A stretch of DNA of 64,000 nt from SAR86 cluster bacterium AG-313-D11. GTDB taxonomy: Bacteria > Pseudomonadota > Gammaproteobacteria > Magnimaribacterales > D2472. The translations under genes and the position numbers were made by a program. The notes beneath the pieces are model-generated. The model was not told the DNA's origin. It saw only the letters and a program-made list of their open reading frames with translations, and ran no database searches. The DNA is taken from positions 62,001 to 126,000 of the forward strand of contig QBVW01000001.1 in NCBI GenBank assembly GCA_003284215.1. Reading direction: 5' to 3'. Position 1 is the stretch's first letter. Each line of letters starts with the position of its first letter. Shown piece after piece: positions 6,829 through 33,059 of this stretch.

Positions 6829-7869
6829 CTATAGTTTGTCTATCCAGTCTTTAATGAGATTGATTCCTGCTTCATCTGCTAGAGCTCGACCTGATTCTGG
6901 CATCATAATTCCTGGATCCAATGATTGCATTCTAAAAAGCATAATCGATTCATTTGGTTGGCCTGGGACTATTGAATATTTTAAATTACCGCTTGCACGC
7001 CCAGCTGCCACTGGTTTTTTAAATATTCCAAGTTGCTCCTGATCATTCTCAATTAAATTTAAATACAGCCCAGTAGTATCAGCAGAACCTCCTGGAATAT
7101 GACAATGCCCACAATTAATATCAAGGTATGCTCGTGCTCGATCATTTAAAGAAGCGTTGATATCGTCATAACTAGATATTGGTATTGATTCAAGCTTTTC
7201 ATCAATCCAACCTAATGCTGCCCAATAAAGTAATTGATTCATTTCTCCTGAATGATAATTTACAGCCTTATCCATATTCCTTGCTTTTGGACCAATAGGC
7301 GTCATAACTTTGTTTACTTGATGACATTCTTTGCATTGATTTTGATTTGGAGCTCGATAGCGAACATCAACTGTCTTTCCATCGGAATCGATGAAACTTG
7401 TTGGAATAGTTGCTCCAGCTATAGATCTTCTGGCATCTGTTTGGTTTTCATTCCATACATAGCTAATAGCCTTCCAACCTGAATTGGTATTAATTAAAAG
7501 TCGCGTTTCAAGCAATTGCTGATCTAATGCACTATTTTTATTAAGATAGGCAAAAGTTTTAATCAGAGTAGATCCAACTGGAAAAATAAAAACTTTATTT
7601 TTTACATAGCCCAACCTCTCTCCCTCAGGAACATATACAAAACGAAGCTTGTCTGTTTGATCAGAGAACAAGGGACTAACAAGAGAGTAGGGGTGAACAC
7701 TTTCAGCTGGAATCTGATTTCTCATATCCTGAAAGAAACCAAATTCAGATAAAAACTTTGGTGCTTTTGAAAAATTTTCTAAATCTATGTCAATGGCGCT
7801 TTTTATTTGAGATGAGAAACAGGTCAATAAAAGAAATGAAAAAAAAGATTGTTTAAAAATTTTCATCAA
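6829..7869 (-). CDS. Periplasmic diheme c-type cytochrome (SO2930/HNE_0200-like family)
   Basis: Signal peptide; two CxxCH motifs (CKECH, CGHCH); C-terminal GQPNESIMLFRMQS…MMPESGRALADEAGINLI. Confidence 0.82.
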   Translation of the reverse strand: MMKIFKQSFFSFLLLTCFSSQIKSAIDIDLENFSKAPKFLSEFGFFQDMRNQIPAESVHPYSLVSPLFSDQTDKLRFVYVPEGERLGYVKNKVFIFPVGSTLIKTFAYLNKNSALDQQLLETRLLINTNSGWKAISYVWNENQTDARRSIAGATIPTSFIDSDGKTVDVRYRAPNQNQCKECHQVNKVMTPIGPKARNMDKAVNYHSGEMNQLLYWAALGWIDEKLESIPISSYDDINASLNDRARAYLDINCGHCHIPGGSADTTGLYLNLIENDQEQLGIFKKPVAAGRASGNLKYSIVPGQPNESIMLFRMQSLDPGIMMPESGRALADEAGINLIKDWIDKL

Positions 7870-9091
7870 ATTCTACTGTTGCTAACGGTGAGATTTCTCC
7901 ATCAAATTCATTAATATCTAGTATTGCAGGCTCTAGAAAAGGAATCATATAGCCAATGGGCTTAATGGCTAACAAAGAAGCATCTCCATTGTTGCTAATG
8001 ATCATTTTTTCATTTTCTGGTTGCCCTAAAATAAGTTGCGATAGTGGGAGCAAGCCGTCCCAAAAGATATCAGGCATATTGCCTCCCGAAAGATCAAACA
8101 GAATTTGAGCTAATTCTCCTTTGCTTGTATCAGGATTGTAGCCTGTTGGGCCAAAATTATTTCCATGAATTTGAATTGATTTAGGGTGCGGATAGTAACT
8201 CTTATCATCTGTTTCATTTCCGTATGTCACTACTGCAATGTTAACCGTATCATTGTCTCCAATTTCATTATTAAAAATCTCTACATGAGAATTTGCCTGA
8301 ATAATAATTCCAGTGCCTCTTGGAACTTCGCCAACTATATTTCCTTCTGGAGCAAAATTATCAGTATTATTCCCAACCGAGCGATTATTAAACACTCTCA
8401 CATGATGACCACCTTGTTGAGGTAATCCGGGCAGATCAAAAACTAGTATGCCCCCAGTATTGTTAGTGGCAATGTTATTATAAACATCTGCATAGTATGA
8501 ATTTTCAATTTCAATACCAGCTACGTTAAATTCAGCCCTACTATTACGAACAATAATGTTTTGTGATTGCCCTACGTAAATCCCAGCATCTGAGGCACCT
8601 ATAGCGACGCAACCATCAATTAATACATTTTTTGACTCAACAGGGTATAGACCATATGCTCCATTTTTTGGATTGGGTCCATTTGTCCATTCTGTTTTAA
8701 CTCTTAAAAATTTTATATTGGTAACACCCTTTACTTTAATTGCATCCCCTTTAGCATTTTGTATAGAGAAATCTTGAAGGGTTACATTGTCTGAGGTAAC
8801 ACTAAGGCCTTGAGCTCCACTTTGCTGATTAGCAAAATTAAGAATGGTTTGATCCATACCCTCTCCTTCAACTTGGACCCCCTCGATATCAAGTGATAAA
8901 GAGTCTTGAAGATGAAAGATTCCTGCTGTTAACCTAATGACGTCGCCAGGCTCAGCTAATATTAGAGCTTCCTGAATATCTTCATAGGCATTCTCAGATG
9001 GCTGAATAATTTGTACAGCAGAATAGATTGGACTACTTAGAAAAAGTAACCCAACAATTAATTGATTAAATTGCTTGAGGGATTTCACCAA
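7853..9091 (-). CDS. Secreted parallel beta-helix repeat protein
   Basis: Signal peptide; repeated short beta-helix coils (VLIDGCVAIGASDAGIYVGQSQNIIVRNSRAEFNVAGIEIENS…); overlaps the cytochrome gene by 17 bp. Confidence 0.82.
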   Translation of the reverse strand: MVKSLKQFNQLIVGLLFLSSPIYSAVQIIQPSENAYEDIQEALILAEPGDVIRLTAGIFHLQDSLSLDIEGVQVEGEGMDQTILNFANQQSGAQGLSVTSDNVTLQDFSIQNAKGDAIKVKGVTNIKFLRVKTEWTNGPNPKNGAYGLYPVESKNVLIDGCVAIGASDAGIYVGQSQNIIVRNSRAEFNVAGIEIENSYYADVYNNIATNNTGGILVFDLPGLPQQGGHHVRVFNNRSVGNNTDNFAPEGNIVGEVPRGTGIIIQANSHVEIFNNEIGDNDTVNIAVVTYGNETDDKSYYPHPKSIQIHGNNFGPTGYNPDTSKGELAQILFDLSGGNMPDIFWDGLLPLSQLILGQPENEKMIISNNGDASLLAIKPIGYMIPFLEPAILDINEFDGEISPLATVEFDENF

Positions 9092-10208: not shown

Positions 10209-10227
10209 ATGTTTACAGTGTAAACAT
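10209..10227. promoter_or_regulatory. Perfect 19-bp palindromic operator candidate (ATGTTTACA-G-TGTAAACAT)
   Basis: Perfect 9-1-9 inverted repeat, 22 bp upstream of the diiron gene ATG and 4 bp downstream of a TATAAT box (minus strand, 10232-10237). Confidence 0.8.
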
Positions 10228-31667: not shown

Positions 31668-32999
31668 TTATCCGAGCAAATTATTTATTTCAATAAGGTT
31701 TTCAGGACTTAAGGTGCCTGCAGCCAAATGAAGACGAAGAGTCGTAATCAAATAATCATATTTTGCATTGGAGAGATTTCTTTCAGCGCTGTAAAGATTT
31801 TTTTCAGCTTGTAATAAATCAACAATATTTCTCGTGCCTACTTCATAACCAACTTTTGTTGCCTCTAGAGCGCTTGATGCAGAAACAACTGCTTGTTTCT
31901 GAGCACGAAGATTTGCAACCAATGTCACTACATTTGAATACTGACTCCTAACATCTTGTATAACACTTCTCTCAGCAAATAATGCATCCTCTGACGATTT
32001 ATTTGACTCTGCATAAGCTTGTTTAGTTCTTGAGATTACAGCACCTCCCTGAAAAATGGGCATGGATAGCTGAAGGCTGTAGGTATCTCGCTTTGTTTCA
32101 TCTGGAACAGTAATATTGAAAGCCCCACCAGTATTTAATCCATCATAAGCGTACTGATTAGTTTCTGATTCAGTTTGCGCCCCAACAATGTCAACTTTTG
32201 GTAAATGATTTGAGGCAACACTTCTCGCATTATTTTTCGATGCTAGTTTTCTTAAGTTTGCGGCCTGTAATCTAAAATTATTTTCAACAGCTTTTCTTGC
32301 CCATTCTTCTTTAGAAGCAGGAATGGGGTTTGATACATCTAAATCATTCACAAGCCCATCAAGAGAAATAATTTCTCGACCAACCAAAGCATTCAGTGAT
32401 TCTTTTGCGGTATAAACTTCCCCCTCAATTCTTGTTCTTGAGGCAATACTTAAGTCAAAAGCTAATTGAGCTTCTTGAACTTCGGTAACAGCTGCAAGAC
32501 CGACTTCATATCTTTGTCGAATTTGATCGAGTTGTTTTTTAATTGCTTTTTCTTCTGATCGAGCTGCGCTTAAATTATCAATAGCTCTTAAAACGTTAAA
32601 ATAAAGCTCGGCAGTTCTAACAATTAAACCTTGTTGAGAATATGCAAAATCAGCCTCTGCTGCATCTGTGAGAAATTTAGATTGTCTATATTTAAACCAT
32701 GTATCTAAACGAAGTAAGGGCTGCGTAAGACGCGCTGAAGTACTGAAATTATTGTATTGATTTTGAAGATTTCCATTTTGATAATATTCATTCCAGTTTG
32801 TTTGAGCGCTAATTGTTATGCTTGGAAGGAGGGCTGCACGCCCTTGGACTTTAATTTCTTTGCCTGATAAATATGAAAATTCTGCTGATTTATATTGTGG
32901 ATCATTTTCTAATGCATCATTGTAAATATCTAGCAAGCTGTCAGCAGTTGAATTAATGCTAACGGCAAGTAGAAATGTGATCAGATATATTTTTTTCAT
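31668..32999 (-). CDS. tolC: TolC family outer membrane efflux protein
   Basis: Signal peptide, two OEP repeats (RYEVGLAAVTEVQEAQ…; YEVGTRNIVDLLQAEKNLYSAERNLSNAKYDYL). Confidence 0.94.
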   Translation of the reverse strand: MKKIYLITFLLAVSINSTADSLLDIYNDALENDPQYKSAEFSYLSGKEIKVQGRAALLPSITISAQTNWNEYYQNGNLQNQYNNFSTSARLTQPLLRLDTWFKYRQSKFLTDAAEADFAYSQQGLIVRTAELYFNVLRAIDNLSAARSEEKAIKKQLDQIRQRYEVGLAAVTEVQEAQLAFDLSIASRTRIEGEVYTAKESLNALVGREIISLDGLVNDLDVSNPIPASKEEWARKAVENNFRLQAANLRKLASKNNARSVASNHLPKVDIVGAQTESETNQYAYDGLNTGGAFNITVPDETKRDTYSLQLSMPIFQGGAVISRTKQAYAESNKSSEDALFAERSVIQDVRSQYSNVVTLVANLRAQKQAVVSASSALEATKVGYEVGTRNIVDLLQAEKNLYSAERNLSNAKYDYLITTLRLHLAAGTLSPENLIEINNLLG

Positions 33000-33013: not shown

Positions 33014-33032
33014 ATGTTTACAGTGCACACAT
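33014..33032. promoter_or_regulatory. Second copy of the 19-bp operator candidate (ATGTTTACAGTGCACACAT)
   Basis: 17/19 identical to 10209-10227; overlaps the end of the tolC -10 box. Confidence 0.75.
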
Positions 33033-33059
33033 TAGAACTTGATAAAGATGGTATGTCAA
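33031..33059 (-). promoter_or_regulatory. Sigma70 promoter of tolC
   Basis: On the minus strand TTGACA (33054-33059) - 17 bp - TCTAAT (33031-33036). Confidence 0.75.

Follow-up and report, generated by a model that had tools for sequence, protein, structure and literature searches.

The imperfect 19-bp palindrome ATGTTTACAGTGCACACAT, which lies in the promoter of tolC (positions 33014-33032, no strand assigned), is a real, evolutionarily conserved site. Its sequence, its rarity, its conservation, its association with particular genes and its pairing with TetR genes were all computed directly, and support the reading that it is very probably bound by a TetR-family repressor, most likely the protein P0001, that would co-regulate an RND pump, the distant tolC gene and two further targets. 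The window, i.e. the whole stretch of DNA that was analysed, comprises 64 kb (C1:62001-126000) of a 1.30-Mb assembly that is 75% complete.

The first-pass annotation had proposed that a single unlinked repressor controls both tolC and a diiron/cytochrome operon through a common operator. This proposal is supported by the conservation of the sites and by their placement, in 68 of 68 cases in the genus, at promoters of the target genes, while binding and repression are predicted from these patterns. To the two targets named there we add the tetR-RND pump locus and, as a fourth, a gene for a small secreted protein.

Two related palindromes at promoters in the window

The tolC gene (P0005; 31668-32999, minus strand, with its start codon at 32999) encodes an outer-membrane efflux channel, as judged by PF02321 and by TIGR01844 (304.9 bits, compared with a cut-off of 225). 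Upstream of it are a probable -35 element, TTGACA (33059-33054, minus strand), and a probable -10 element, TCTAAT (33036-33031, minus strand), separated by 17 nucleotides. Across orthologues, TTGACA and the pattern T(C/T)TAAT are retained while the spacer drifts. The first 2 bp of the operator are also part of the -10 hexamer, an overlap that had been described before and that we confirmed, together with the sequence and the location of the site. Judged by the promoter spacing, the centre of the operator is near +1.

The second palindrome, ATGTTTACAGTGTAAACAT, is perfect and is located upstream of a gene encoding an AurF-like diiron oxidase (10209-10227, no strand assigned). It begins 4 bp past a probable -10 element, TATAAT (10237-10232, minus strand), which is retained even where the operator has been lost, and its centre is near +8 by spacing. 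The two palindromes are identical at 17 of 19 positions, exactly as claimed previously, but the further claim that they occupy the same position relative to their promoters holds only approximately, given centres near +1 and near +8. The AurF-like gene (P0004; 9066-10187, minus strand; PF11583, 43.4 bits, cut-off 29.6) is followed by genes for a parallel beta-helix protein (7853-9091, minus strand; TIGR03805, 410.7 bits, cut-off 141.5) and an SO2930-family diheme c-type cytochrome (6829-7869, minus strand; TIGR03806, 355.1 bits, cut-off 313.3). Since the reading frames of the latter two genes overlap those of their neighbours, the three genes probably form one operon. A paralogue of the AurF-like protein (58-62% identity) has no operator upstream of its gene.

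A pattern search of the assembly gave a low count for the motif in the genome as a whole. The 17-bp core, TGTTTACANTGTAAACA, is perfect in two places (10210 and C6:60107), and at tolC it has two mismatches. Copies with three mismatches occur at C1:131132 and C1:131163, spaced 31 bp, between the candidate repressor gene and its pump, and a further one is located 35 bp away from the C6:60107 site. The tolC and AurF-like sites are thus nearer to the consensus than the tetR-RND sites. Other weak matches (C1:157616, C2:76216, C2:139930 and C4:55259) and a match at C11:6691 lie inside open reading frames, and we rejected them as background-like.

Conservation and gene associations of the palindrome

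We searched 27 genomes of the genus for ATGTTTACANTGTAAACAT, allowing up to two mismatches and using the reversed pattern as a control. This search found 68 palindrome sites, compared with 4 for the control. All 68 are situated 6-85 bp upstream of genes of just four kinds, namely tetR-RND (21 sites, one of which belongs to a TetR paralogue in genome G008), tolC (19), aurF (15) and a gene for a small secreted protein of about 90 amino acids (13). Away from promoters, the motif is not common.

Both sites seen in the window are kept upstream of orthologous genes. The tolC operator is present in all 21 orthologues in the genus, 26-32 bp before the start codon, with a mean top-base frequency of 0.955 in the site, compared with 0.73 in the 65 bp upstream. 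The aurF operator is present in 15 of 21 orthologues, with corresponding values of 0.968 in the site and 0.66 in the flanks, and most of the six genomes that lack it still have a -10-like hexamer. Upstream of the AurF-like gene in several operator-less genomes (L074-L077), another dyad, CTCACG...CTGTGAG, is found near the same place, whole or as a remnant, and is perhaps the site of another regulator.

Of ten genomes that represent other genera of the family, nine have the tolC operator, at a distance from the gene that differs from that in the genus; six have the aurF operator, in two of them in a degenerate form; and at least five have the small-protein site. In another family of the order, genome G038 combines a relative of the TetR protein (37% identity) with a tolC site, and the tolC site is absent from the examined members of the order that lack a close TetR. 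The tolC and TetR sites thus mostly co-occur across genera. There are exceptions: a tolC site is missing both from G032, which keeps the TetR gene and its tandem sites, and from G049, whose TetR homologue is 40% identical. A Fisher test gives p of about 3e-6, but this value comes from rough counts on related, non-independent genomes, and we place no weight on it.

At two loci, sites precede a further gene (L194, G028:C6 near 27.7 kb; L198, G038:C1 near 190.3 kb). The L198 gene encodes an adaptor-like protein (28% identity to the RND adaptor P0002 over 125 amino acids), and the 292-amino-acid protein encoded at L194 may be similar, so that in some genera a second pump may belong to the regulon.

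The small secreted protein is exemplified by P0006 (91 amino acids), whose gene is preceded by the C6 pair of sites and is divergent from a rhodanese gene. PAN domains were recognised in homologues of P0006 from another genus (PAN_1, scores of up to 30 bits with a cut-off of 21.4), and a close homologue that we compared with PAN scored below the cut-off. Genome G036 has two copies of a small PAN-like gene (L191, L192). Each copy has a pair of operators spaced by about 41-42 bp, and both copies are in a similar neighbourhood, with genes for a 559-amino-acid protein, a rhodanese-like protein, a protein of about 308 amino acids and an RNA-binding-like protein.

A candidate repressor divergent from an RND pump

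The candidate for the unlinked repressor is encoded outside the window. P0001 (C1:130521-131126) is a TetR/AcrR-family protein with an N-terminal TetR_N helix-turn-helix (PF00440, 38 bits, cut-off 24) and a C-terminal domain of ligand-binding type (TetR_C_33, PF13305, 36.1 bits, cut-off 26.8). By sequence, its closest solved relative is a probable TetR-type transcriptional regulator (PDB 3on2; E 3e-21, residues 4-173), with which it has a YHHG-x-L N-terminus in common. The P0001 gene is 36 kb from tolC and 4.5 kb beyond the end of the window, and is divergent from genes encoding an RND adaptor (P0002) and an RND permease (P0003). The two operator copies at C1:131132 and C1:131163 fill the divergent region, so that the promoter of P0001 itself carries palindromic operators. 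This tandem pair occurs in 29 of 30 tetR-RND loci, including those of other genera in which the TetR proteins are 41-46% identical. Beyond the permease gene, the reading frames that follow resemble, by eye, a cupin, a TauD-like dioxygenase and other genes, and none looks like an outer-membrane channel.

The 75%-complete assembly contains only three TetR_N genes, and the two besides P0001 (L029, L030) have no such palindrome nearby. In G008, extra TetR paralogues have related tandem sites of their own (L147, C1:196000-210000), e.g. TGTTGACTAAGTAAACA, about 30 bp apart, which suggests duplication and divergence of an operator-regulator pair.

The same palindrome beside TetR genes outside SAR86

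An exact search for the 19-mer in 85,462 genomes, one per GTDB species, found 76 loci, many of which are labelled SAR86 and 32 of which are not. At the SAR86 loci with a readable neighbour, the genes that follow the site are aurF-like, tolC or small-protein genes, and some loci end near the site. At 12 of the 32 loci outside SAR86, the site adjoins a TetR gene whose product resembles P0001 (binomial p = 2e-9 against a generous assumed background of 4%). Five frames that begin within or beside the site were judged TetR-like by eye (L209, L220, L253, L255, L266), which brings the total to 17 of 32. The TetR proteins that could be aligned are 25-33% identical to P0001, and most have the recognition-helix motif VS-x-x-APYRHF, while a second group has the helix SAMAIYRHF or a similar one. 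These results suggest that, in unrelated bacteria, TetR proteins with APYRHF-type helices use ATGTTTACANTGTAAACAT as an operator.

In Steroidobacter, Tahibacter, Frateuria and Lysobacteraceae (L209, L220, L232, L255, L266), the ATG of the TetR gene is inside the palindrome, at its end, and the helix of these proteins is of the SAMAIYRHF type or similar. In several Firmicutes (L236, L243, L258), the 19-mer falls within a coding region for the cysteine motif CLQCKHKPC; this is a coding coincidence, and it inflates naive motif scans.

Alternative explanations

Short AT-rich palindromes recur, and the two sites could in principle be a chance pair with no regulatory meaning. Within the window this explanation fares reasonably well: two matches at up to three mismatches are found where 0.67 are expected, and 17 of 100 shuffled windows also give two. 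The first-pass argument that a second match at a promoter speaks against chance is therefore weak when drawn from the window alone. Its conclusion is nonetheless upheld by the comparative evidence, since a chance pair would not be expected to yield 68 sites against 4 in the genus, all at target promoters, or to stay conserved across genera while its flanks drift. Conservation across the genus and the family thus refutes the chance explanation, to which we give almost no credence. We assign a similarly negligible probability to the palindrome being an RNA hairpin, such as an attenuator or another UTR element. An inverted repeat near a start codon invites this idea, but the folding energy is ordinary (z = -0.47), and the overlap with the -10 element at tolC would leave part of the site untranscribed. 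Moreover, the left arm is mismatched in most tolC orthologues, in which the DNA motif is retained, the site is found at differing distances from the gene in other genera, and tandem pairs lie between divergent genes.

A more serious rival accepts the operator as real and shared, and holds that a protein other than P0001 acts at tolC and aurF, either a TetR protein missing from the assembly or a regulator of another family. With a quarter of the genome absent a further TetR gene could have been missed, additional TetR paralogues accompanied by related tandem sites do occur in G008, and the consensus is matched better at tolC and aurF than at the tetR-RND locus. On the other hand, the motif flanks a P0001-type TetR gene in nearly all relatives (the 29 of 30 loci), the genera with a tolC site are for the most part those with TetR sites, exact sites outside SAR86 are found beside genes for TetR proteins that mostly have the same recognition helix, and neither of the remaining TetR_N genes in the assembly has the palindrome nearby. 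We therefore regard a different protein as improbable, and P0001 as the best candidate.

A model for the regulon

From these patterns we infer direct binding, its repressive sign, a ligand and a physiological purpose for the regulon. When bound to the 19-bp palindrome as a dimer, the TetR protein would obstruct RNA polymerase at tolC and, likewise, at the aurF-like/beta-helix/diheme-cytochrome operon and at the gene for the small secreted protein. Such steric repression is suggested because the operators are near +1 at tolC, just past the -10 element at the aurF-like operon, and flanking the promoter of the pump. Through its two tandem sites, the TetR protein would repress the pump and would also be autoregulated. 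It would be freed by a ligand, presumably one of the pump's substrates, so that the pump, the channel and two accessory functions would rise together.

Coordinated efflux is the purpose that would best fit these targets: the RND pair needs an outer-membrane channel, and tolC has the same operator. The oxidase, the cytochrome and the secreted protein perhaps handle the same toxic compound, although this is a guess. Taken further, the regulon could be a previously undescribed programme of chemical defence or metabolite handling in SAR86, a marine clade with reduced genomes, in which one TetR switch has a compound oxidised and exported via RND-TolC, with the participation of the beta-helix/diheme-cytochrome pair and the small secreted protein; we offer this only tentatively, as a possibility that is rather less likely than its contrary.

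Comparison with known regulons

Our literature search found no paper with the exact palindrome, and no experimentally defined efflux regulon in SAR86, an abundant and largely uncultured ocean lineage. The predicted system provides an operator of defined sequence, a named candidate for the repressor and a list of four targets, and all of these could be tested in E. coli with no need to grow SAR86. It also ties to efflux both the AurF-like/TIGR03805/TIGR03806 set and the small secreted protein, which are uncharacterised, and so gives a clue to their function. The proposed SAR86 regulon is new, while TetR regulons that join a local pump to distal genes are already known, for example those of AtrR and CmeR. 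It fits this kind in that one operator recurs beside the neighbouring pump and upstream of distant genes.

The cmeABC pump operon of C. jejuni includes its own outer-membrane channel, and the distant gene Cj0561c encodes a periplasmic protein. Both are repressed by CmeR (PMC4943160), which thus resembles the SAR86 candidate in being an RND-pump repressor that also acts on a distant gene, whereas the distal targets in SAR86 include the outer-membrane channel itself. The divergent placement of the TetR gene and an adjacent adaptor-permease pair resembles the local TetR regulators of RND pumps of the EnvR/AcrR type, among which EnvR has a distant target too, acrAB (PMC6790063); the distal targets in SAR86 are instead tolC, the oxidase/cytochrome operon and the secreted protein.

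The regulatory pattern can also be likened to that of AtrR (VCA0767), a TetR-family protein of V. cholerae whose loss raises the vexRAB RND operon and an unlinked tolC (PMC10805010). The main text of that paper has no mention of a binding site or operator (PMC10805010). In both cases, a TetR-family protein would control an RND pump together with an unlinked tolC. However, AtrR acts on vexRAB, in which VexR is a pathway-specific activator, while the SAR86 TetR gene adjoins its pump, and the SAR86 regulon adds the AurF-like operon and the small secreted protein.
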